The notes below the pieces were generated by a model. It worked only from the letters and a program-made list of their open reading frames with translations. It made no database searches and was not told the DNA's origin. The position numbers and the translations under genes are program-made. Below, piece after piece: positions 14,518-26,625 of a stretch of 64,000 nucleotides of DNA. The stretch is from Methylohalobius crimeensis 10Ki. Its GTDB lineage: Bacteria; Pseudomonadota; Gammaproteobacteria; Methylococcales; Methylothermaceae. Where the stretch lies: positions 930,001 to 994,000 of the forward strand of contig NZ_ATXB01000001.1 of assembly GCF_000421465.1 (NCBI RefSeq), written 5' to 3'. Numbering within the stretch: position 1 is the first letter of the stretch; every line of letters begins with the position of its first letter.

Positions 14518-17500
14518 CTAGCGAAACCAGGCGGTTACACTTCTTTTGGCTGTCATCTCGACGCTACAGGTATGTTGCGTGCCGCTGCAGGTCCCTAGCC
14601 ACAGGACTTCTTTTCCTGCGGCGGGATCCGCCGTTAGAGTCACAAAAGTATTGGCGGGATAAGTTTCCATACAGTCTTCTGGACAATCGATACCGGCAGG
14701 TTCGCTGATTACCCTGCCCGTACCAATAATCCGTACCGCCAGAAGGTGGCCTATTTGCTTGCTATCAACCGTAGTGGCTTCGGTCGCGCTGTTATTGTCT
14801 GGGATCGGATCTGGTTGGTCGGCGGTTGCAGTGGCGCTCACGCTGATGCCGCCGGCATTGGTGGGAGTGGTAATGAGGGTGATTGTGGCTTGCTCTCCGG
14901 TCGCTATGTTTCCTAATATACAGGAGGTGTTTATTTCGCCTGTGCAATTGCCTTGGCTGGTAGATATTTCCACTGGCTCCAGCTGACTTGGCAATGAAAG
15001 GGAAGCGGTCACGCCGGTGGCAGCATCGGGTCCGTGATTAACGACCGTCGCCGTGTAGGTTAGTATTTCACCTATGCTTGCGGGATCGGGCTCATCTGTC
15101 AGAGTCATGGAGAGGTCGGCTTCCTCGGTAGGAGGTGGCGGTGCGCCAGAATCTGAACCATAGAGATTAAGGCGCCAGGCTTGGAAGGTGCCGGTGTTTC
15201 CGCTCGCCAGATCCCGAACCTCGAGCGTCCAGGTACCCCAAGAGGATTCGCCTAAATGGCGGACGGAGGTAAAGCGCCAGTTGGAGTAATGGGAGGTGTT
15301 ACTGCCCGAGTCATGTTGCTCGGCTAGCACGCTAACGGTGCCGGCGGGCGAAATCAGGCGAATATCCAAATCCCCCCATTGAGGATGGTCGTCCGCATTG
15401 AAAATCACTTCCGCCGATTCGACCCGAATATCTTGGGAGATTTCCACATGGGAACTGACACCGCCGGGGTTGTCGTCGGGTATCGGAATATTCGGTGACG
15501 CATTCTCATTTAATGTGATTTCATCTCCCAGGAGGGGCCAGTTGCGAGCGGTTTCCACCGCTGCGGCGATGTCGATCCGACCGAAGCCGAATTGATGATT
15601 AATGGGATAACCGGCGCCGTTCTCCGTCCAATCTGGATCTTGAGGGTCATTTTGTATGGCGGTTGTGGCCAGGATGTGTTGAACATCCCTCCAACTTAAA
15701 TTGGGGTTGGCTTCCAGCAAGAGAGCCAGCGCACCGCATGCGAGAGGGCTGGTGGCGGAAGTGCCGCCAAATGCGTCGGTATAGTTGCCGAAATCGTAGC
15801 CCGAAAATCCGGATCGGTCGGTGGAGGTGATCGCTAAAGTGCCTCCGCTGGAAGGCGTGTTAACAAGCAGGTTGGCGCCTTTTTCGGAATAAAATGCCCG
15901 TGTCCCCTCGTTGGTGGAAGCGGCGACCGCTATGGTGTAGCGTAAATTGGCGTATCCGTCGTAGTTGGAATTGTCGTTGTCTCCACCGTTGCCGCCCGCC
16001 CAGCAGTAAACGATACCTTTGCCATTCCGGCCGTTGGTGGCTCCGTCGGCGATGGCCGTCTCAGTGAGGGGGCCGGGTCCCGCCAGTAGTTCACCTCCGT
16101 CCGGCGGTCCCCAGCTGTTATTGGATAGATCGACGATGTCAGGGCGATAATTCAATGCAGCAGCCTCATTGGTGTCGCTGGTCGCGCCGAGTAATCTTAG
16201 CCCGATAAGATCGGCGTTAGGGGCGGTGCCAACGATTCCCAGTCCGTTATCGCCGTTGGCGGCGGCGATTCCGGCCACAGCAGTCCCATGTTTACCGGCA
16301 GTGGGATCTCCGTCGTTTCCCACATAGTCATAATGGGGCGCGGAAGCTGTATTGGCCTTGAGATCTTCGTGATTAATTTCCAAACCGTCGTCGACGATGG
16401 TGATTTGTGTGCCCTCGCCGGTAAGCCCTTCGGCCCAAGCTGGCGTGATATGGATATCGGCCCCGGGCATTCCTCCGCCTTGGCCGGTGTTGTCCAGGTG
16501 CCATTGGTCCTGGAATAGAGGGTCGTTCCAGCTTGCTTCGTCGTTGTCCTCGCCGGGGGGAACCGAAGTCGTGATCGTGGCAGCGTTATTGGCCGGATTG
16601 GGGTCGTTACCAATGGCTGATATCTGAGCCGTATTGGTAATTTCCTTGCTTGCTGTCGGAATGACCTGCAGGCTTATCGTGGCAGTTCCGCCATTTTTCA
16701 AAAAACCGATAGTGCACTCAACGGTGACCGAGCCGGAGCAAAAGCCATTGGAAGCGGTTGCCGATATGAACGTCGTGCTTGACGGAAGTGTATCCGTTAT
16801 ATGAATGTTTCTGGCGGTATCGGGGCCGTTGTTCTTTATCGTAATTAAATAGGTTAGCGGTTGTCCTTGAACTGCGATTTTCGGCGTGGCGGTTTTTTCG
16901 ATTTGCAAATCAGCATTAAAGACAAGGCGTGTTTGGCGAGGGCGAAGCCAATTCGGGTAGGCATAACGCACCGAGGAGTCCTGCTCGTATATTTGCCGAG
17001 ATTTCCTTATGCAGTCCAGGCCGGTGCAGGAAAAGAGGAAGGTATTATTCGGCAATAATTTGCGTTTGAGTGACAAGTCATAATTTTTTCCCCAGCGTTT
17101 AACTTCCTTGGCAGATTTCGAAGAAGTAAATTGAACGATGACTTCCGGTAGGAGGACAAAACCCCACTTCCTAGTTTCAGGAGACGGATGAAACACAGGG
17201 GCAATCCGTTCGATTTCAGAGGATGGACTCTGCTTGAGCAGCCGGTCGAATTCTTTTCGAATCAATGGTTTTGACAGGTGAATTCGTGCATAGAGTTCAT
17301 TTGCTTCGATCAGACTTGCATCTGGAAAAACCTGTATTAACCGAGGCCACTCTTCTGGTTGGATGTGTCGTGTTTTAGAGAAAACAGCGATTTCACTGGA
17401 GGCAAGCCAGAATGTACGTCTCTGGTTGCCGTCATACCAAATCCATCGGTGGGATGTCGAATAAGCCGGGGAACTGATCGTGGAGGAATTCCTTGAATCT

Positions 17501-17580
17501 TTCGCCTGAATGGGAATGTTAAAAAAGATTGCCAGAATCCATATGGCAGTAAGTATAACGCTAGGATGTGAGAAACTCAT
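14518..17580 (-). CDS. Secreted S8 (subtilisin-like) protease with DUF11, P and B-repeat domains
   Basis: A 1020-residue exported protein. In order: a signal peptide (about 1-26), a ~190-residue pro-region, a DUF11 domain (about 218-337), and a subtilisin catalytic domain with Asp (VDDGLEI, ~396), His (KHGTAVAGIAA, ~431) and Ser (GGTSATSPLACGA, ~608). Next come a proprotein-convertase P domain (about 690-805, QWGDLDIRLISPAG), a second DUF11 (about 820-935), and a C-terminal cysteine-paired repeat (about 945-1020, GIDCPEDC and GTCSGTQHTC). DUF11 before the catalytic core is unusual for S8 enzymes. AGGAAAA precedes the ATG. Its substrate is unknown; neighbouring exported proteins are candidates. 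Confidence 0.92.
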   Translation of the reverse strand: MSFSHPSVILTAIWILAIFFNIPIQAKDSRNSSTISSPAYSTSHRWIWYDGNQRRTFWLASSEIAVFSKTRHIQPEEWPRLIQVFPDASLIEANELYARIHLSKPLIRKEFDRLLKQSPSSEIERIAPVFHPSPETRKWGFVLLPEVIVQFTSSKSAKEVKRWGKNYDLSLKRKLLPNNTFLFSCTGLDCIRKSRQIYEQDSSVRYAYPNWLRPRQTRLVFNADLQIEKTATPKIAVQGQPLTYLITIKNNGPDTARNIHITDTLPSSTTFISATASNGFCSGSVTVECTIGFLKNGGTATISLQVIPTASKEITNTAQISAIGNDPNPANNAATITTSVPPGEDNDEASWNDPLFQDQWHLDNTGQGGGMPGADIHITPAWAEGLTGEGTQITIVDDGLEINHEDLKANTASAPHYDYVGNDGDPTAGKHGTAVAGIAAANGDNGLGIVGTAPNADLIGLRLLGATSDTNEAAALNYRPDIVDLSNNSWGPPDGGELLAGPGPLTETAIADGATNGRNGKGIVYCWAGGNGGDNDNSNYDGYANLRYTIAVAASTNEGTRAFYSEKGANLLVNTPSSGGTLAITSTDRSGFSGYDFGNYTDAFGGTSATSPLACGALALLLEANPNLSWRDVQHILATTAIQNDPQDPDWTENGAGYPINHQFGFGRIDIAAAVETARNWPLLGDEITLNENASPNIPIPDDNPGGVSSHVEISQDIRVESAEVIFNADDHPQWGDLDIRLISPAGTVSVLAEQHDSGSNTSHYSNWRFTSVRHLGESSWGTWTLEVRDLASGNTGTFQAWRLNLYGSDSGAPPPPTEEADLSMTLTDEPDPASIGEILTYTATVVNHGPDAATGVTASLSLPSQLEPVEISTSQGNCTGEINTSCILGNIATGEQATITLITTPTNAGGISVSATATADQPDPIPDNNSATEATTVDSKQIGHLLAVRIIGTGRVISEPAGIDCPEDCMETYPANTFVTLTADPAAGKEVLWLGTCSGTQHTCSVEMTAKRSVTAWFR

Positions 17581-18113: not shown

Positions 18114-18200
18114 GGATTCCTCCATATCAATCGAGTTTCGGTTGCTGGCTAATTATTTAGCTCGGCCAAGTAGTTTGCTTGTAATGTAGGCACGAATTAC

Positions 18201-18327
18201 GGGGTAGAAGGTTGATGGCAATAAAGTTGATATTTCCCGCTTTCGGAGCCGGTAAGGCGGGTAGAAGCTCATAACCTTATTTGCGAAAGCGTCATGTCGA
18301 TCAGACGCTTCAAAAAATGACTACCCC
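18201..18327. other. Possible structured RNA or multi-stem element
   Basis: An outer pair, GGGGTAG (18201-18207) and CTACCCC (18321-18327), encloses CGCTTTCG (18238-18245) pairing with CGAAAGCG (18284-18291), and AAGCGTC (18288-18294) pairing with GACGCTT (18304-18310). The last two stems share bases, so they would be alternative folds. On the minus strand this would be leader RNA of the gene starting at 18113. I could not match it to a known riboswitch class. Confidence 0.35.
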
Positions 18328-18563
18328 TCCCTTTTTGTAAAAGCAAATATCAAGCCAAGTCGAAGTTTTTCTTTTGTCGAGGTTTTAGTAAAGAGCTTGG
18401 CCGATGCTATTAGTTATGGGGGGTTGTCTAATGGGTTTAATAAAGTTGTTTTTTTAACTTTTTGGCTTGCGAAGTTGTTTAAAAATTCTATGTAAAAAAA
18501 ACAGACAAGGAGTGGGGAAAACGTTTTGAATTATTTCTTTTTAAGAAAAAATGGGGATATATG

Positions 18564-18581
18564 TGTAAGCAATTGCTTACA
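18564..18581. promoter_or_regulatory. 18-bp perfect palindrome, candidate regulator site
   Basis: TGTAAGCAATTGCTTACA is a perfect dyad in an AT-rich intergenic stretch, typical of a homodimeric regulator operator. It lies about 430 bases upstream of the sigma-54-type promoter at 18998, so an enhancer role is possible but the distance is longer than usual. No regulator gene is next to it. Confidence 0.5.
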
Positions 18582-18997
18582 GTGTCAGAATTAATTTATA
18601 GCTGTTTTTGTCTTGGGCTATATTTTGAATCCATTAAAATCAAAGGCTTGTATTAAGAGTATCGATATAAGGGTAGAAATTGATTTATATCAAAAATTGA
18701 AATCACATCTTCCGATGTCATTTTTTTTTACAGATTACAGTAGGTATTTGACCAAAGTCTTTGGTTGGGTTTTATGAGAAAATCCAGTTAAATCAATGTG
18801 TTGATTTTTATTGTTTAATTTTGATAAATAATTATTGTTTGGCGCTGCAAGCATGTATTCCGTTAGAGATATGTCAGGGTTTTTTACATAGCTATAAGCA
18901 TGATTGTAGAAATTTCTTAAAAAAAGACTCTGTTGATATGGATTATAGGTGTATTTTCTTTTAAAAAAACAGTAAGTTACAGTTTGGGTGAAAATTA

Positions 18998-19015
18998 TTG
19001 GCATGCAGTATGCAA
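18998..19015 (+). promoter_or_regulatory. Sigma-54-type promoter upstream of the small exported proteins
   Basis: TTGGCATGCAGTATGCAA fits the -24/-12 consensus (TGGCAC...TTGC). The GG at 19000-19001 and the GC at 19012-19013 are separated by exactly ten bases. Transcription would start near 19025, giving a leader of about 90 bases before ATG 19118. A second promoter of the same type drives the gene at 26625. Confidence 0.65.
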
Positions 19016-19117
19016 GATTATTTGATGAAGGGCATCCCATCGTCTCTGGGAGATAGAAATGGAGATAGAAATAAAGATGTCAAAAATATCATGTTTTTCT
19101 GTTATCCGAGGTTTGCC

Positions 19118-19567
19118 ATGAATAAAGTCTTAGCTTTAGGTGCAGGTGCTGGATTAATAGCGTCTGCTGCAATGGCCGATCCTATAGGGCCAACCTTATT
19201 GACAGGTGCTGAGATGGACCGGATTAGTGCTGGAGGCGTGGCGGTGGTCACTGCAAACGCGACGGCCACCTCTCCCATTATTGCGCTCACTAACACTAAT
19301 ACCGCTGCGGTGTCGAGCGTTTCCAACCCGGACTCAGGGATCTCCGGATCTGCGGTAGGGGCAGGCGGAGGGGCCATTGCCGTCGGAATAGGCGAAGGCT
19401 CCACGACCGAAACTTCGGTCGAACCGATAGTTCATGCGAACAATTCCGGATCCAAGGACGGCACCATGACGATCTCGCTGGGTTCGACCACCGAAGTCGG
19501 TTTTCTTGAAATAAGTTCGGGGGCAGCCGTAGAAGTCGGAATCGTCGGGCTGGGCTACTTCCCGTAA
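19118..19567 (+). CDS. Small exported protein 1 with E-M-D-x-I-S-A-G-G motif
   Basis: A 149-residue protein. A Sec signal peptide (MNKVLALGAGAGLIASAAMA) is followed by L-T-G-A-E-M-D-R-I-S-A-G-G, then a Thr/Ala/Asn-rich segment, a glycine-rich middle (VGAGGGAIAVGIGEG) and a more mixed C terminus. ATG 19118 has GAGG six bases upstream. It is the first of three related genes and the only one with a true Gly-Gly in the motif. The motif resembles double-glycine leaders cut by C39 peptidases, one of which is encoded at 23071. Function unknown; amyloid-like or peptide cargo is inferred. Confidence 0.75.
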   Translation: MNKVLALGAGAGLIASAAMADPIGPTLLTGAEMDRISAGGVAVVTANATATSPIIALTNTNTAAVSSVSNPDSGISGSAVGAGGGAIAVGIGEGSTTETSVEPIVHANNSGSKDGTMTISLGSTTEVGFLEISSGAAVEVGIVGLGYFP

Positions 19568-19677
19568 TCAGAATCTGCAGCCCTCCAGCCGGGTGGCTGG
19601 GCGGCTTCAGGTCTCCGGTCCTTATATGCCAGGACCGGATGTGTCTAACCTTCAATCCTTATCAGGAGGAAATTGAG

Positions 19678-19968
19678 ATGAAAAAGCAAATGGTAAGCAG
19701 TGTTGTTTCAGGCGCGATGCTGGCCGCTGCCGGCGCTGTATCGGCAAGTGAGCCGGTAGCGTTGGATGCATCCCAAATGGATAAGGTGACTGCTGCAGGT
19801 AGTGCCGCTGCCACTGCTGCAGCAACAGCAGTTGGTCAGATTCTCGCGGCCACCTCTACTTCCACTATCGCTTATGTGGTGGCTTTGCCCGCCATCCCCA
19901 CCCAAGGGGGGCAACTGCTGCCGACAGTGTCTGTTGCGGCCGCAGCTTCGGCTTCGGCATCGCAGTAA
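19678..19968 (+). CDS. Small exported protein 2, Ala/Ser/Thr-rich, Q-M-D motif
   Basis: A 96-residue protein with a signal peptide ending at VSA, then EPVALDASQMDKVTAAG, an alanine-rich run, and ATSTSTIAYVVAL. The last element is closely matched in protein 3 (ATSTSTTTYVFAL), so the two are paralogues. The C terminus is Ala/Ser-rich. AGGAGG stands eight bases before ATG 19678, a strong ribosome site that suggests abundant synthesis. Low complexity, export and beta-prone Thr/Val/Tyr stretches fit a surface polymer subunit or secreted peptide precursor. This is inference, as no characterised family is recognised. Confidence 0.75.
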   Translation: MKKQMVSSVVSGAMLAAAGAVSASEPVALDASQMDKVTAAGSAAATAAATAVGQILAATSTSTIAYVVALPAIPTQGGQLLPTVSVAAAASASASQ

Positions 19969-20018
19969 CGGCGCTTTGAAGCGAACATTTAATCTGAATT
20001 AATACAGGAGAATCGAAA

Positions 20019-20366
20019 ATGAAGACTGTAACTTCTCTCGTGGCGGGAGCTTCTGTGCTGGCAATTGCCGGAGGCGTGAATGCTCAACCCCTGGCGTTAA
20101 GCGATACCCAGATGGATGGCATCACAGCGGGTGCCACCGTCCTGCCTATTGCGGTAGCTGCCGCCTCGGCCCTGGGGGCCGCATCGGGTAGCGTTTTGAG
20201 TGCTACCTCGGCTATTGCTGCGACGTCCACTTCCACTACCACCTATGTCTTCGCATTAGGTCAATCTAGTGATACCAGCATTGGTATCTCCGCCGTAACC
20301 GGTGCGGGGGGAACAGGCGGTGCAGCAGCAACTTCTGCCAGCGGAGCCGCTGCTGCTGTCAATTGA
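20019..20366 (+). CDS. Small exported protein 3, Ala/Ser/Thr/Gly-rich, Q-M-D motif
   Basis: A 115-residue protein with a signal peptide (cleavage near GGVNA), then PLALSDTQMDGITAG. That segment aligns position by position with the L-S-x-x-E-L-x-x-I-x-G-G double-glycine leader consensus, apart from Q for E, M for L and A for the first G. It is followed by an Ala-rich helix-like run, ATSTSTTTYVFAL, and a Gly/Ala tail. ACAGGAGAA precedes the ATG. It closes the three-gene group; a 24-base repeat and a terminator follow directly. Confidence 0.75.
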   Translation: MKTVTSLVAGASVLAIAGGVNAQPLALSDTQMDGITAGATVLPIAVAAASALGAASGSVLSATSAIAATSTSTTTYVFALGQSSDTSIGISAVTGAGGTGGAAATSASGAAAAVN

Positions 20367-20367
20367 A

Positions 20368-20391
20368 CTCTAGGACGATAGAGTTACGCCC
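20368..20391. repeat. 24-bp direct repeat, copy 1, with CTCTA/TAGAG hairpin
   Basis: CTCTAGGACGATAGAG plus TTACGCCC. The arms CTCTA and TAGAG present a GGACGA loop. An identical copy lies at 20464-20487, on the other side of a terminator. The loop contains A-x-GGA-like sequence as in CsrA/RsmA sites, which is only a suggestion. Copy 1 begins two bases after the stop codon of exported protein 3. Confidence 0.6.
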
Positions 20392-20412
20392 TTAAGCAGT
20401 GTGGAGGGCAAG

Positions 20413-20445
20413 ACCTCGCCGCAGGATCACTGCGGCGAGGTTTTT
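20413..20445 (+). terminator. Strong rho-independent terminator after the small exported proteins
   Basis: ACCTCGCCGCA (20413-20423) pairs perfectly with TGCGGCGAGGT (20431-20441) around a seven-base loop, followed by a T run. It should end or attenuate transcription of the three small genes before the sulfotransferase gene, allowing high expression of the small proteins relative to the downstream machinery. Confidence 0.85.
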
Positions 20446-20463
20446 AAAGCCAAAGGCTAAATG

Positions 20464-20487
20464 CTCTAGGACGATAGAGTTACGCCC
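20464..20487. repeat. 24-bp direct repeat, copy 2
   Basis: Identical over 24 bases to 20368-20391 and able to form the same short hairpin. It lies about 40 bases before the start of the sulfotransferase gene, in what would be its 5' leader, where no good ribosome site is seen. Confidence 0.6.
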
Positions 20488-20527
20488 CCCACATCAAAAA
20501 GTATAGACGCAAAAATCGGTTTTGCTT

Positions 20528-23074
20528 ATGAAAATGGATCATCAACATACGTTTGACAAGCCGGCGGTAACCCAGGATCCGGAAGCAATACTTAAGCAGG
20601 CCGGACAATTGCTTGATCATGGGCAGCTTGAAGAAGCCCAGATCTTGTATCGACAGGTCTTGGCGCAATGTCCAGACCATCCGGTAGCGTTTCATTTTAT
20701 CGGGGTGGTTGCTTCGCGACAGGGCGATCATCGAGCAGCGGTGGAATGGATTGCCAAGGCCTTGTCTGTCCAGCCAGATTACCCGGATGCGCGCAATAAC
20801 TTGGGGATCGTTTTTTTGAACCAAGGGTGCCTTGAGGAGGCTGGCGAATGTTTTCGAAAGGTCCTCGAACTGGATCCGGATCACATTAACGCGCTTAACA
20901 ATCTGGGCGTGATTCTGCTAGGTCAAGGACGACTTGCGGAGGCGGAAGATTGTTTTCGGCAAGTGCTGGCAAACCAGCCTGAGCACGTCGATGCTGGTAA
21001 TAATCTCGGTATTATCTTGATGAATCAAGGTCGCTTGATGGAGGCCGGTGAACAGTTTCAGCAAGTATTGTCCATCAAACCTAAGCATGCCGATGCCCAA
21101 ACCAACTCGGGAATCATTCATATGGCTCAAGGCGACCTCGAAAAAGCGGCAGAATTCCTTTCTCGAGCGTTAGCGATTAACCCAAACCATCCCGAAGCTC
21201 TGGTCAATATGGGATTCATCCACCAGCATAAGGGGCGTATGGTAGAAGCCGGTGGATGTTTCCGTCAATCGTTAGCAGTCAAACCTACCAATCCTGAAGT
21301 ACTCAACAATCTGGGGGTTATTTCCCTTAATGAAGGGAAATTGAAGGAAGCGACCGATTATTTTCGCAAAGCATTAGCCCTCCGTCCCGATTACGCCGAT
21401 GCCTATAACAATCTGGGGAGTGTGGCGATGCGTCAAGGCTTACCCGAAGAAGCCGTGGAGCATTTCCGGAAAGCCTTGGCGATTAATCCGGATCACGCCG
21501 ATGCCAATAACAACATGGGCGGCTTGTTGTTCAAGGATTCCCGGTTGGCCGAGGCGGTCCAATATCTGGAGCGGGCATTGACTGTCAAGCCTGACTCCTC
21601 CGAGGCGCTCAACAACCTTGGCCAGATTTACTTAAGCTACAATCAATTCGAGGATGCGCGGGAATGCTTCCGCAAAGCATTGGCCATCCATCCCCGGTTT
21701 GTCGAGGCCATCAATAATGTGGGTACGACCTACCTGAATGATGGGCAATTGGTTGAAGCAGAAGAGTATTTTCGCCAGGCGTTGGCCATAAATGCAGATC
21801 ACGCGGATACATACAATAACTTGGGGGCGGTATACCTCAATAGAGGCCAGCCAGAGGAGGCGGTGAATTATTTTCGCCAGGCATTAGAACTCAATCCTGA
21901 CCATCCAAGCGCCCACAGTAATTTGGGGGTGGTGCTGCAACAGCAGGGGAAGATGACCGAGGCAGCAAAATGTTTTAAAGAAGCGATCCGCATTCTGCCC
22001 AAACAGGGAGAAGCCTATCGGCATTTGGTTAATTGCTACAAGATCAAGGCCGAGGGCGAGGAAATCCAGCAGATCGAGTCCTTGTTGCAGGACCCGAATG
22101 TATTGCCTATTCAGCGCATTCCCCTGCATTTTGCCTTGGGTAAGTCATATGATGACATCGGCGATTTCGATCGAGCATTCATGAATTATGCCGAAGCCAA
22201 TCGCTTATGGAGAGCGGATTTGGATTCCCGCAATAAAGCCCTTGACATGGATCAATTTTCAAAATACGTCGACAATATCATAGAAGCCTTTCCACAAGGT
22301 TTTTTCTCTGGCGACGTGCCGCGGGCAAGTGAGTCCGAGGTTCCGGTTTTCATCGTAGGCATGTTTCGCTCAGGCACTACCCTGGTAGAGCAAATCATCG
22401 CCAGCCATTCCCGTGCTTTCGGCGCCGGCGAGCTCAAAAAGATCAGCCAGATCGTAGCTAAGCTTCAAGAACGGCTGGGGTGTGGCCTCTATCCTGAAGG
22501 AATATCCCGGTTGGATCACGAAATGGTAAAAGGTGCGGCCAATGAGTATTTGGACTACGTTACCCATTTGGCTGGGCCGACGGAGCGGATCACCGACAAA
22601 ATGCCCAACAATATCTGGCAATTGGGTCTGATCGCGATGATGTTCCCAAATGCCAAGATCATCTACTGCCGGCGCGATCCCAAGGATATCTGTCTATCCT
22701 GTTTCTTTCAAAGATTCACGGATGAAGTTCCGTACTCTACTGATCTCAGAGATTCAGGAAAATTTTACCTGGAGACAGAACGAATCGCTCGTCATTGGAA
22801 ATCCGTCCTTCCCATGCCGATATTGGAGGTCGAATACGAGCGTCTAGTGGACACTCCGCAACGGGAAAGCCGTCGTATCATCGACTTCATCGGCCTCGAG
22901 TGGGAGGATAATTGCCTAAATTTCCACAAAACCCGACGCAATGTTTCCACTGCCAGTGTCTGGCAAGTTCGCCAACCCATCTATACCAAGTCGGTGAAAC
23001 GGTGGCAGCGGTATGCCAAACATATCAAGCCATTACTAGAAGTTTTGAATACCGATTCGAACAAACCGTCATGA
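20528..23074 (+). CDS. TPR-repeat sulfotransferase
   Basis: About 848 residues. Fourteen consecutive TPR units (residues about 15-500; recurring NQGRLxEA and ALxINPDHADAxNNLG patterns) are followed by a spacer and a sulfotransferase domain (about 600-840). The PAPS 5'-phosphosulfate loop is FRSGTTLVEQIIASHS, and a 3'-phosphate-binding-like segment is IIYCRRDPKDICLSCFF. It has no signal peptide, so it should act in the cytoplasm. The TPRs probably bind a protein or peptide acceptor. ATG 20528 is chosen, although TTG 20522 and ATG 20534 are possible and no clear ribosome site exists. It overlaps the C39 peptidase start, so the two are translationally coupled. Confidence 0.9.
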   Translation: MKMDHQHTFDKPAVTQDPEAILKQAGQLLDHGQLEEAQILYRQVLAQCPDHPVAFHFIGVVASRQGDHRAAVEWIAKALSVQPDYPDARNNLGIVFLNQGCLEEAGECFRKVLELDPDHINALNNLGVILLGQGRLAEAEDCFRQVLANQPEHVDAGNNLGIILMNQGRLMEAGEQFQQVLSIKPKHADAQTNSGIIHMAQGDLEKAAEFLSRALAINPNHPEALVNMGFIHQHKGRMVEAGGCFRQSLAVKPTNPEVLNNLGVISLNEGKLKEATDYFRKALALRPDYADAYNNLGSVAMRQGLPEEAVEHFRKALAINPDHADANNNMGGLLFKDSRLAEAVQYLERALTVKPDSSEALNNLGQIYLSYNQFEDARECFRKALAIHPRFVEAINNVGTTYLNDGQLVEAEEYFRQALAINADHADTYNNLGAVYLNRGQPEEAVNYFRQALELNPDHPSAHSNLGVVLQQQGKMTEAAKCFKEAIRILPKQGEAYRHLVNCYKIKAEGEEIQQIESLLQDPNVLPIQRIPLHFALGKSYDDIGDFDRAFMNYAEANRLWRADLDSRNKALDMDQFSKYVDNIIEAFPQGFFSGDVPRASESEVPVFIVGMFRSGTTLVEQIIASHSRAFGAGELKKISQIVAKLQERLGCGLYPEGISRLDHEMVKGAANEYLDYVTHLAGPTERITDKMPNNIWQLGLIAMMFPNAKIIYCRRDPKDICLSCFFQRFTDEVPYSTDLRDSGKFYLETERIARHWKSVLPMPILEVEYERLVDTPQRESRRIIDFIGLEWEDNCLNFHKTRRNVSTASVWQVRQPIYTKSVKRWQRYAKHIKPLLEVLNTDSNKPS

Positions 23075-23703
23075 AAAAGCGTCTCTTTAGCGATTGGGGA
23101 TGGCGAGGAGTTGTTGTTTGGTTGGCTCTGTTAATGTGGACTTTGCCCGGACAGGGACGTACGGTCAAGTCCTTGCTGGAAATGCGTCATGAGCATGTAG
23201 TCATTCAAAAATGGGACTTGAGCTGTGGTGCCGCAACCTTGGCGACCTTGCTCAATTATCAGTATGGAGACTCGGTATCGGAAAAAGAAGTTGCAAAAGG
23301 TTTGATTAAACGGGAAATATATTTGAAAAATCCGCGCCTGGTTCAGATCCGCCAGGGTTTTTCCCTGTTGGATTTGAAGCGCTATGTGGATGCCCGTGGT
23401 TATAAAGGCGTCGGTTACGGTAAACTGGATCTAGAAGGGCTGCTCAAAAAGGCTCCAATGATCGTTCCTCTCAATCTGCACGGCTATAATCATTTTGTGG
23501 TTTTTCGTGGAATGCGAGGGAATCGAGTATTATTGGCCGATCCCGCTTGGGGAAATCGAACCATGACCGTCCGTCGCTTCGTGGATGCGTGGATTGATTA
23601 CCCTCAATTCGGACAGGTAGGCTTTATGGTGCAAAGAGAGGATGGGGGGGATCCGCCCAATCAGTTGGCGCCGCGCCCTGAAGATTTCGTGATGCTGAGA
23701 TAA
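23071..23703 (+). CDS. Exported C39-type cysteine peptidase, FapD-like
   Basis: A 210-residue protein with an N-terminal signal or membrane segment (VVVWLALLMWTLPGQG). The C39 catalytic residues are Cys (QKWDLSCGAATLATLL, about residue 52), His (GYNHFVVF) and Asp (LLADPAWGN). C39 peptidases normally remove double-glycine leaders. The stand-alone exported version in functional amyloid operons is FapD. It overlaps the sulfotransferase stop by four bases and is followed after 15 bases by a FapF-like barrel gene, the same order as fapD-(E)-F. No ABC transporter is fused or adjacent, which argues against a classical bacteriocin exporter. Confidence 0.85.
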   Translation: MKKRLFSDWGWRGVVVWLALLMWTLPGQGRTVKSLLEMRHEHVVIQKWDLSCGAATLATLLNYQYGDSVSEKEVAKGLIKREIYLKNPRLVQIRQGFSLLDLKRYVDARGYKGVGYGKLDLEGLLKKAPMIVPLNLHGYNHFVVFRGMRGNRVLLADPAWGNRTMTVRRFVDAWIDYPQFGQVGFMVQREDGGDPPNQLAPRPEDFVMLR

Positions 23704-23718
23704 AAGGAATGAAAAATC

Positions 23719-24915
23719 GTGAAAAAATTGAGGAAGCTGGCAGGAGCGGGGATATTGGCTTGCTTCACATTTTCCGCATGGGGGGTGGATCATTCCGATC
23801 CCCCCGTAAAAACGCTGTTGGAGAAGCTGGAAGAACGTGACCGATTAATTTCTGATTTGCAGCGCCGGGTGACCCATCTGGAGAAACTGGTTGGTGAAAA
23901 AGCGAGAAAGGATTCACCCCCAACCGAGCAAGCCCGCCGCCATCAGGAGGTTGAGAAGAAACCAGCCACGGACCATAAAGTAGCCCAAGCGACACCGCCG
24001 CCGAAGCCAAAAAAACAAAAAGGGGGAGCAGGCTCGTTTGAAGTCGATGAAGAGGCGGCGGAACATGCCTTGGAGCGTACCTTGACCCAGGTCGGGGCGC
24101 TGCTATTGCCTTTCGGCCGTGCTGAAATCCAGCCTTTTTTCGTGTATACACGTCAGGAATTTGATCGTCCCATCTTGTTTGTCAATGAGGAGGGACAGTT
24201 GCAGGGGGTGGGGAGCCGAGAAATCAAGCAAGATCGGTTTAATTCAGGTATCTTTTCTCGTTTGGGATTGCCCATGGATGCTCAGCTAGAGCTGAGTATT
24301 CCTTATACCATAGTGGATCGGACCCTTACTAATACACCGAGTTTCAATACGAGGCAATCTACCGAACGCAAAGACTCGGCCTCCCACTTGGGCGATATTC
24401 AGGTCGGTATCGCCAAGACTCTGTTTCGAGAAAGAAAATGGCGACCGGATCTGATCGCGCGTTTGACCTGGTTCGCACCAACCGGCAGACGAATCCACGA
24501 CGGCGTGGAGTTGGGGGGCGGTTTTCACCGTCTAAGAGGTTCGTTAACCGCCTTGAAGCGTCAGGATCCTTTAGCCTTTACGGGTAGTTTTTTCTATGAG
24601 GGGGCGTTTGACGAAAACAACAATAATCCCGGAGATCGGTTTGGGTTTTCAGTGGGAGCGCTTTTGGCGGCTAGTCCCGAAACGTCCCTGAGTATCTCCA
24701 TAGAACAGAGCTTTATCGATGAAGTTAAATTGAATGGCCGCACCATTAAGGGAAGCGATCGGGTTTCCAGTTCTTTCGTGTTCGGAGCTTCGTCGATTCT
24801 TGGAAGAGGATTTTTGCTTTCCGTCTTCGGTGGCATCGGTTTGACGGAAGACGCCCCGGATTATTTCATCAACGTATCAGTGCCGCTGCGATTCAACATG
24901 CCTTTTGTAAGATAG
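23719..24915 (+). CDS. Outer-membrane beta-barrel with N-terminal coiled coil, FapF-like
   Basis: A 398-residue protein. A signal peptide (about 1-22) is followed by a heptad-patterned coiled coil (VKTLLEKLEERDRLISDLQR..., about 30-58), a Lys/Pro-rich linker, then from about residue 110 a barrel of alternating hydrophobic strands (VGALLLPFGRAEIQPFFVY onward). Coiled coil plus barrel is the layout of FapF, the trimeric channel that exports Fap amyloid subunits. The GTG start has GGAATG upstream. The barrel would naturally end at VSVPLRF; six further residues run into the convergent neighbour. The FapF assignment is by architecture and neighbourhood. Confidence 0.8.
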   Translation: MKKLRKLAGAGILACFTFSAWGVDHSDPPVKTLLEKLEERDRLISDLQRRVTHLEKLVGEKARKDSPPTEQARRHQEVEKKPATDHKVAQATPPPKPKKQKGGAGSFEVDEEAAEHALERTLTQVGALLLPFGRAEIQPFFVYTRQEFDRPILFVNEEGQLQGVGSREIKQDRFNSGIFSRLGLPMDAQLELSIPYTIVDRTLTNTPSFNTRQSTERKDSASHLGDIQVGIAKTLFRERKWRPDLIARLTWFAPTGRRIHDGVELGGGFHRLRGSLTALKRQDPLAFTGSFFYEGAFDENNNNPGDRFGFSVGALLAASPETSLSISIEQSFIDEVKLNGRTIKGSDRVSSSFVFGASSILGRGFLLSVFGGIGLTEDAPDYFINVSVPLRFNMPFVR

Positions 24916-26625
24916 ACGTCGATTTTTGAAGAGGACGAGCAGGCCGATGAGGAGCAGCATCAACGGCGCAGGTGCCGGCACCTGTGCGAGACCGGCGAAA
25001 GAGAGAAATACTTTGCCGGGTTGGTCGAAGGCCTCTTCCCACAGGTCTTCATCGGTGAAATCCAGGCCGACGAAAAGTTCCGGAATCAGATCGGAATCCG
25101 GGGTCAGTTCGCTTAGGAATTCGTCCAGCCAGTCTGATTGACCTGTTTGGGCTTGTTCGATATTTAGAATCGGCCCGAACAGGTTGAAGCCTTGTTCGTC
25201 CCCCAAGGTATCTTCATATACCAAGGTGGGCAGAGTGGTTTGCAGCAGCAAGTTTCCGTCCTTGTCGAAAATACGCAGCTCGTCCCCGGTGAAATATTCC
25301 CGGCCATCATGGTTGGTGAAGCGGAGCAAGGGATCGATTTCCAGGGTGCCGCCGTTCAAGGGGTCGTTTCGGTAGCGAGGGCTGACGGTATTTCGAGGTC
25401 CGCCAGTTAAAACATTGATCGGTACCGGGTCGAAGGAAAGGAGATTGGTGTTCGGATTCCAATGAATATTGGGTCCCGAGCTAGAGGTTGGAGGGATGTA
25501 GCCAGCCTTTTCGGCAACTTGAGGGACCGCTCTTGGCGGAGCCTCGTAGGAGCCCTCGGTATGGGTGTTCTGAATGCTCACCACGGTGCTGTTTTGGGGA
25601 TTGCAAGGGTCCATCAGAACGACTGGAACGTTGAGTGGAGAAGAGCCGCCGTTCAGGCTTACCCCTTCCTCGGATTGGCTCAGGTTCTGCTGAAACCAAT
25701 CTTCAATGCTTTGATGGCTGTTCGGCGAACCGATGGGAATCCGGGTCGTTTCGCCGTTTTCCACATAAATGACAAACCCCACTGTGTTGATGGAGACTTG
25801 ATCTCCAACCTGCTGAATCACGTTCACCGTATCCCTCATAATGGCGAACGCGACGGTAGGATGGGCCTGGAGATCCAATTGATGGGCATTCCAAGCGATA
25901 TTCAGCAAAGTATTGGTATCCGTCTCCGGTTGGCAGGTGGCGTCGGTCTGAATGCCGATCCCCGTGACCGCTCCTTGACTACCGGTCACCGCTTTCGCGA
26001 TGAGGGGTTCGCTGGCGTTTGCGAATGCATTGGTGTTATGGCTATTTGAGATGGTGGCGATATTGACCCCGCCGTTGTAAAGAAAGGGAGTGGGTGAGAC
26101 GTCGACCGAGCTGCCACCAGTGGCGATGTGAGCGTTCGGAGCGATTGGGTTGGAGAAATTCGCAGCGATCGCGTTCGTATGGGAAAAGGTTTGAGCGGTG
26201 GAAAAAACCCCCGAATAATCCAGGTAAAGTCTATTTTGAGGGTTCTGTAATGTGGCCAGGATGGTAAAAGCGGATTCCGTGCTGGCTGCCGGTGCTAAAT
26301 CATCGAGCGCCGCTTCTTGAAAACTTCCGTCGGATACGAAAAAAATCGATCCATCGGAAACCGCTTCCGGAGGCAAGGTCGTATCTATCTCCCATTGTGT
26401 GGTTTCAAGTTGTCTATTCGGGGTTAGGGGGGGACGAGCAAAAACATCCGCGATTAAGCGCTTTTCCGGCTCATCGAGAATCGGAGCGGCCCACAGCGTT
26501 AATGAGGCTAGGATAATCGGTTGGATAAAAAGCCTAGCCGGAAAACTGGATTTGCAGAATGTATTACACTTATCAAAGGCATCGTTGCGATGCATCGCAT
26601 GATGATTTGCTGATGGTGCTTTCAT
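24877..26625 (-). CDS. PEP-CTERM-like exported surface protein
   Basis: About 582 residues. A long N-terminal region contains a signal segment (LFIQPIILASLTLWAAP). The body is Asn/Thr/Ser-rich and predicted extracellular. The C-terminal sorting-type tail consists of VPAPAP, a hydrophobic helix (LMLLLIGLLVLF) and KNRR. That tripartite tail matches PEP-CTERM proteins processed by exosortases, although the motif is P-A-P rather than P-E-P. Twelve extra residues follow the RR and overlap the 3' end of the barrel gene. A sigma-54-type promoter lies 36-53 bases upstream of the ATG. No ribosome site is evident, so the start could be further in. No exosortase is encoded in this window. Confidence 0.75.
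   Translation of the reverse strand: MKAPSANHHAMHRNDAFDKCNTFCKSSFPARLFIQPIILASLTLWAAPILDEPEKRLIADVFARPPLTPNRQLETTQWEIDTTLPPEAVSDGSIFFVSDGSFQEAALDDLAPAASTESAFTILATLQNPQNRLYLDYSGVFSTAQTFSHTNAIAANFSNPIAPNAHIATGGSSVDVSPTPFLYNGGVNIATISNSHNTNAFANASEPLIAKAVTGSQGAVTGIGIQTDATCQPETDTNTLLNIAWNAHQLDLQAHPTVAFAIMRDTVNVIQQVGDQVSINTVGFVIYVENGETTRIPIGSPNSHQSIEDWFQQNLSQSEEGVSLNGGSSPLNVPVVLMDPCNPQNSTVVSIQNTHTEGSYEAPPRAVPQVAEKAGYIPPTSSSGPNIHWNPNTNLLSFDPVPINVLTGGPRNTVSPRYRNDPLNGGTLEIDPLLRFTNHDGREYFTGDELRIFDKDGNLLLQTTLPTLVYEDTLGDEQGFNLFGPILNIEQAQTGQSDWLDEFLSELTPDSDLIPELFVGLDFTDEDLWEEAFDQPGKVFLSFAGLAQVPAPAPLMLLLIGLLVLFKNRRLSYKRHVESQRH

Follow-up and report, generated by a model that had tools for sequence, protein, structure and literature searches.

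The closest known systems to the locus described here are Fap of Pseudomonas, encoded by fapABCDEF, and the nap island of Neisseria. Secretion by Fap needs FapF and a catalytically active periplasmic FapD (PMC5557850). Papers of 2017 and 2018 describe the substrate of FapD as unresolved (PMC5557850, PMC6173800), and fapD-fapF pairs are stated in a review to occur in five further phyla (PMC5557850, PMC6173800). The nap island holds, in one locus, a C39 peptidase (NapP), a FapF homologue (NapF) and small proteins with a GG motif, described as autolysis-promoting peptides (PMC11798529).

We found a gene set related to both in Methylohalobius crimeensis 10Ki. We analyzed 64,000 nucleotides of its genome (contig NZ_ATXB01000001.1, positions 930,001 to 994,000; called the window, and numbered from its first base). 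The block at 19118-24915, all on the + strand, encodes three small exported proteins (here called cargo), a TPR protein with a C-terminal sulfotransferase domain, a C39 peptidase and a beta-barrel protein. With Fap it shares a FapF-type channel and, apparently, Sec-exported subunits and an exported C39 peptidase; with the nap island it shares, by gene content, a C39 peptidase, a FapF homologue and small double-glycine-type proteins. Signal peptides in the block were assigned by eye. We selected the start codons ourselves: ATG at 19118 for cargo 1, then 19678 and 20019 for the other two, and 23071 for the peptidase. A previous reading of this DNA, made from the sequence only, had located all of these features correctly, and one start was changed: the upstream TTG at 18998 proposed for cargo 1 was replaced by the ATG at 19118.

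The surroundings of the block are as follows. Upstream of the cargo genes are ~900 bases of AT-rich DNA (18200-19117; GC 33%, versus 57% for the window), in which we saw no convincing gene by eye. A subtilase with DUF11 repeats and a P-domain adjoins the block (14518-17580, - strand). Downstream, a gene on the - strand (24877-26625) overlaps the end of the barrel gene. It encodes an exported protein of 582 amino acids that is possibly associated with the system and ends in a weakly PEP-CTERM-like tail (E 0.31, under the cut-off). Homologues of this protein are near C39 in 5 of 42 other loci (L032, L034, L043, L057 and L063).

The barrel protein (23719-24915, +) is a homologue of FapF. The single sequence matched the NCBIfam FapF model at 5.5e-14, below the cut-off, and a profile built from 35 barrels matched FapF in the PDB (E 3.6e-24). 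An AF2 model (pLDDT 86) contained an N-terminal helix at residues 28-65 (coiled coil), a linker, a helix at residues 111-125 that is a candidate plug, and a beta-barrel at residues 134-393. When this model was searched with Foldseek, the first 18 matches were all FapF chains (TMt 0.76-0.82) and the next two were COG4313. The sequence-only reading had proposed a Fap-like module with an exported C39 peptidase and a FapF-type barrel, and the profile and structure matches bear this out.

The C39 cysteine peptidase (23071-23703, +; exported, as judged by eye) is a stand-alone protein of 210 amino acids. Unlike the peptidases of type I double-glycine exporters (PCAT type), it is not fused to an ABC transporter. 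It matched PF03412 above the cut-off (E 4e-13), and no second PF03412 match was found in the genome at E 0.001. The best NCBIfam match was to FilB (5.9e-31), with FapD at 1.4e-28. Both are under the curated cut-offs, and on the FapD model the protein scored 99.7 bits, far short of the cut-off of 330, which is one difference from Fap. The barrel also matched FilC weakly (7e-4), so there is some likeness to the putative pilus system Fil; however, the FilB and FilC matches are both below curated cut-offs, and no other Fil-named model was among the matches listed. A profile of 45 C39 sequences matched the double-glycine protease domain 6mpz (sequence E 2.7e-8, stretch E 1e-5). Q46, C52, H141 and D157, which we take to be the catalytic residues, are invariant in these 45 sequences.

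Each of the three cargo has a Sec-like signal and, just after it, the motif L-x3-(Q/E)-MD-x-(V/I)-(T/S)-A-(G/A). The motif reads LTGAEMDRISAG in cargo 1 (19118-19567, +), LDASQMDKVTAA in cargo 2 (19678-19968, +) and LSDTQMDGITAG in cargo 3 (20019-20366, +). It is followed by 110 residues rich in Ser, Thr, Gly, Ala and Val in cargo 1, by 56 residues in cargo 2 and by 77 residues in cargo 3. Double-glycine leaders have the consensus L at -12, S/T at -11, E/Q at -8, L/M at -7, I/V at -4, G/A at -2 and G at -1, and the register of the cargo motif fits it. Thus, two earlier proposals held up: that three small Sec-exported proteins share a motif, and that this motif is a double-glycine-like leader placed after a Sec-like signal. 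This explicit pro-peptide on the cargo is another difference from Fap.

The same motif was found next to C39 genes in many other genomes. In a search of 61 genomes (that of M. crimeensis and 60 relatives), 11 had C39 matches. Four of the other genomes, with C39 homologues of 63-70% identity, had two or three motif proteins, the peptidase and the barrel in one cluster; the motif was absent from nine weaker C39 loci and their flanks (a set taken without its two weakest members, G060 and G010). Scanning species genomes yielded 53 C39 loci. We classed 42 of them (L032-L073) as close to the window's C39 and L074-L083 as divergent; L084 was dropped as unrelated. There were 101 open reading frames (ORFs) with the motif in 37 of the 42 close loci, several of which are truncated by contig ends, compared with 0-1 per dinucleotide shuffle (10 shuffles); counts over the 42 loci are not independent, because they include close relatives (L044/L048/L072, L067/L070, L049/L051 and L071/L073) and because the genomes of the order survey overlap with them. 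No motif ORF was found in 19 divergent loci (L074-L083 and L023-L031). The median distance from a motif ORF to C39 was 1.0 kb, and 96 of the 101 were within 3 kb. Some of the 37 loci are from named Methylobacter, Nitrosospira and Nitrosomonas strains.

Five close loci fell outside the 37. One (L047) has a variant cargo, one (L035, contig G127:C194) is from a genome with dispersed cargo, and in one (L062) the available sequence starts inside C39. We found no recognisable cargo at the remaining two, L067 and L070. Just beyond the close group, the Caldimonas locus (L075) has the variant leader MTNAQLDEVVAG. In a tree of C39 sequences, from which L029 was left out, the 44 close rows (40 from cargo loci and 4 not) were separated from the rest by a branch supported at 88/82, under the usual mark. 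On account of its variant cargo, L047 was scored there among the cargo loci. The four cargo-less rows sit inside the group, so four changes of the cargo label are needed in the tree. Separately, one locus has a second, divergent C39 with other small proteins downstream of the barrel (L041:11975-13972), and this locus possibly holds two modules in tandem.

We also surveyed sampled genomes of the order and the phylum. Among 201 genomes of the order, 46 had a C39 match, and a wide gap divided them: 14 were at 1e-95 or better and 32 at 1e-35 or worse. A strict DNA pattern for the motif was present in 9 of the 14 genomes with a close C39 compared with 3 of the 187 without (p 3e-10), and the reversed control of the pattern was present in 1 of 201. 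On inspection, all 14 genomes with a close C39 had cargo, either adjoining C39 or dispersed; the 187 were checked by the strict pattern only. One match among the 187 is real: a genome without a C39 match (G142) has two cargo genes (L102) next to what resembles, by eye, a transposase gene, and this pair is possibly a decayed locus. The other two were chance matches. Two genomes (G127 and G128) had no cargo beside C39 and had single cargo genes far away. Lone cargo genes (L096, L097, L098 and L111) were seen in two genomes in which the C39-barrel pair has no adjacent cargo. Dispersed single genes of this kind suggest that the machinery acts in trans. Among 398 sampled genomes of the phylum, only that of M. 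crimeensis had a close C39. The strict pattern occurred in four of the 398 (control, 1), and the three matches besides that in the window were not in small exported ORFs. Pattern matches in G132, G140, G202, G345 and G514 were outside small exported ORFs and were taken as chance. The joint occurrence of cargo, C39 and barrel in different genomes, which the earlier reading had expected, is real and conserved.

The leader is also conserved by position. Among 104 cargo (the 101 plus the three in the window), L is at -12 in 104 of 104, with three registers permitted by the search, and T or S is at -11 in 81. A is at -2 in 99 and G at -1 in 97; motifs were counted with a regular expression, and positions -8 to -1 were thus selected by the search, because that expression was derived from the first loci. 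Motif variants, for example ASMD and GELD, also occurred and were left out of the counts. With a crude A-x-A rule for the signal-peptidase site, the pro-peptide is 14-18 residues long in 67 of the 104.

The cargo fall into three classes, which were assigned by eye ahead of alignment. Class A aligns cargo 1 with 13 relatives from other loci at 25-33% identity, the relatives having been picked by length, gene order and motif. Class B aligns cargo 2 with 12 relatives (36-50% identity), and 12 of its 13 members have 56 amino acids after the motif. Class C aligns cargo 3 with 11 relatives (34-42% identity). Nine other loci have all three classes, in the order A-B-C, as in the window, in eight and B-C-A in one. 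A fourth, larger class with the leader LNEAMLDSVTAG was seen downstream of the barrel at three loci (L040:12009-12593, L049:5807-6415 and L051:11853-12458).

The cargo have no clear amyloid signature by profiles, a curlin scan or a low-confidence model. No Pfam family matched the window cargo, and NCBIfam gave just two matches (E 0.13 and 0.3), both far below cut-off. In contrast to FapB and FapC, which have Asn/Gln-rich repeats, they match no Fap-named NCBIfam model and contain few Asn and Gln residues (6, 4 and 2 after the motif in cargo 1, 2 and 3). FapA and FapE were not matched in the NCBIfam scan of the window proteins, a library that may not include such models. Curlin-repeat matches in 2 of 10 other cargo scanned were below cut-off (E 0.004 and 0.24), and curlin-type repeats were dropped as a description of the cargo. 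A structure model of the cargo (pLDDT 52, low confidence) showed a beta-rich tendency and a helical leader, and we read it no further.

Genes, folds, leader motif, conserved linkage and a related cargo trio are directly established. Based on these we infer, and consider it probable, that the block is a secretion module, related to Fap, for a family of small extracellular proteins of low complexity. Using the assigned signal peptides, these would cross the inner membrane by Sec. Signal peptidase would then leave a pro-peptide of ~15 residues that ends in the double-glycine-like motif (L at -12, T/S at -11, Q/E at -8, M/L at -7, D at -6, V/I at -4, T/S at -3, A at -2 and G at -1). The periplasmic C39 peptidase would recognise this motif and cut after A-G, G-G or A-A. 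The clipped, unfolded cargo would leave through the FapF-type channel and probably assemble outside as structural, amyloid-like surface material. Counterpoints to this reading are the lack of a clear amyloid signature in the cargo, the selection of motif positions -8 to -1 by the search, the close loci without recognisable cargo (L067 and L070) and the genome with cargo and no C39 match (G142).

It is possible, and in our judgment unlikely, that the system is instead nap-like, with cargo that are bacteriocin- or autolysis-type peptides, freed by C39 and the FapF-type channel, that act on cells and do not form a matrix. The nap island itself speaks for this, and a few cargo weakly match double-glycine peptide families (CTB family bacteriocin, 3 of 59; VP1 pheromone, 1 of 59; E 0.0008 or worse), matches that are unspecific because the commonest weak match was to an acid-shock protein (4 of 59). 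However, NapA-C are described as cationic (PMC11798529), whereas the cargo here are mostly neutral to acidic: net charge after the motif is 0 or less in 72 of the 101 cargo of other loci and +3 or more in 14, and by residue counts the window cargo are not positively charged. Entry into the periplasm also appears to differ. The authors of the nap study suggest that a holin-like protein might carry NapA-C across the inner membrane, and the terms 'signal peptide', 'signal sequence', 'Sec-dependent' and 'Sec pathway' are absent from the main text of that paper (PMC11798529); the cargo here have Sec-like signals. In addition, no immunity or holin gene was recognised among the selected neighbours scanned, and the ordered cargo trio, with a nearly fixed length of class B, looks structural.

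A second alternative concerns the TPR-sulfotransferase (20528-23074, +), a protein without a signal peptide (by eye) whose stop codon overlaps the C39 start at 23071-23074. That is, the system would export sulfated peptides, with the cargo modified by this enzyme before export. The sulfotransferase domain (Sulfotransfer_3, 1.2e-41) is nearest, among solved structures, to protein-tyrosine sulfotransferases (2e-9), and a single Tyr follows the motif in each window cargo. RaxX, RaxST and RaxB provide a precedent: raxX-raxSTAB of Xanthomonas likewise has a sulfotransferase and a small double-glycine protein that is processed before secretion (PMC6637879). In that system RaxB is in a type I secretion complex (PMC6637879), whereas the C39 peptidase here is separate and exported and has no conserved link to the sulfotransferase. 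We did not find the enzyme in the available DNA of the other 42 close-C39 loci, and in the order survey sulfotransferase homologues were not linked to close C39 (4 of 14 genomes with it and 64 of 187 without). The Tyr residues are not distinctive, since Tyr is also present in many related cargo whose loci lack the enzyme. We therefore regard export of sulfated peptides as quite improbable. The sequence-only reading had made the sulfotransferase part of the system; we reject it as a core component, and sulfation as a general feature of the module is not supported. By its distribution, the enzyme appears to be an optional, locus-specific modifier.

Other accessory enzymes were seen near C39 at six other loci, giving four lineages when the window sulfotransferase is counted; further ones may exist, because only selected neighbours were scanned. 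One locus (L060) has a TPR-GT41 protein beside a cargo gene, ~1.8 kb from C39. Three close relatives (L044, L048 and L072) have an ATP-grasp protein nearby; among NCBIfam models it best matches a ribosomal peptide maturase (2e-21, 3e-21 and 1e-22, all far under the cut-off). The close relatives L067 and L070 have a TPR protein directly before C39, with a weak best match to an oxygenase (E 0.053). A common modifying role for these enzymes is speculation. We consider it doubtful that cytoplasmic enzymes particular to single lineages (TPR-sulfotransferase, TPR-GT41 glycosyltransferase, ATP-grasp ligase and 2OG-oxygenase-like TPR protein) modify the structural subunits before export by Sec, C39 and the FapF channel. 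If they do, this would be a RiPP-like logic, modify and then clip, on an amyloid-type exporter.

Least probable, and very doubtful in our view, is that the motif is a docking or retention signal for C39 rather than a cleavage site, and that C39 serves as a chaperone or has a different cleavage target, for example the linker of the barrel: according to one paper, FapE and FapF may be targets of FapD, and some C39-like domains are inactive and act as chaperones (PMC5557850), but the presumed catalytic residues are invariant here and the motif matches double-glycine leaders position by position, ending in A-G, G-G or A-A.

The cargo genes and the machinery genes are separated by a structured region (20364-20500, +). 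It has a fold z of -8.5 and contains a GC-rich, terminator-like stem (by eye) that runs into a U-run, between two identical short hairpins, CTCTAGGACGATAGAG. The flanking hairpin repeat has two copies in the genome, both in this region. There was no Rfam match in 20364-20500, and a simple terminator scan did not call the hairpin. It is possible that this region is an attenuator between cargo and machinery or a site of post-transcriptional control, and it may enable the cell to produce an excess of cargo. That the hairpins are of the CsrA type is an idea only. A promoter scan was uninformative (10 sites, 10.1 expected). At other loci, a family related to one LuxR-type regulator (L033) was found within 8 kb of C39 at 17 of 43 loci, and the window is not one of the 17.

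We found no description of the Sec-plus-leader cargo family in the open-licence literature. As far as that literature was searched, the locus is an undescribed, conserved form of the Fap-type secretion module and carries a putative recognition site for its peptidase. The defined cargo family offers the FapD-like class of C39 peptidases a position-conserved candidate cleavage site, and thus a candidate substrate, at 37 of 42 loci. The gene set is present in a methane-oxidising bacterium and in a range of other bacteria, and its role in export is probable. If the proposed mechanism is true, it would explain the re-use in the periplasm of a peptidase that is familiar from cytoplasmic ABC exporters.
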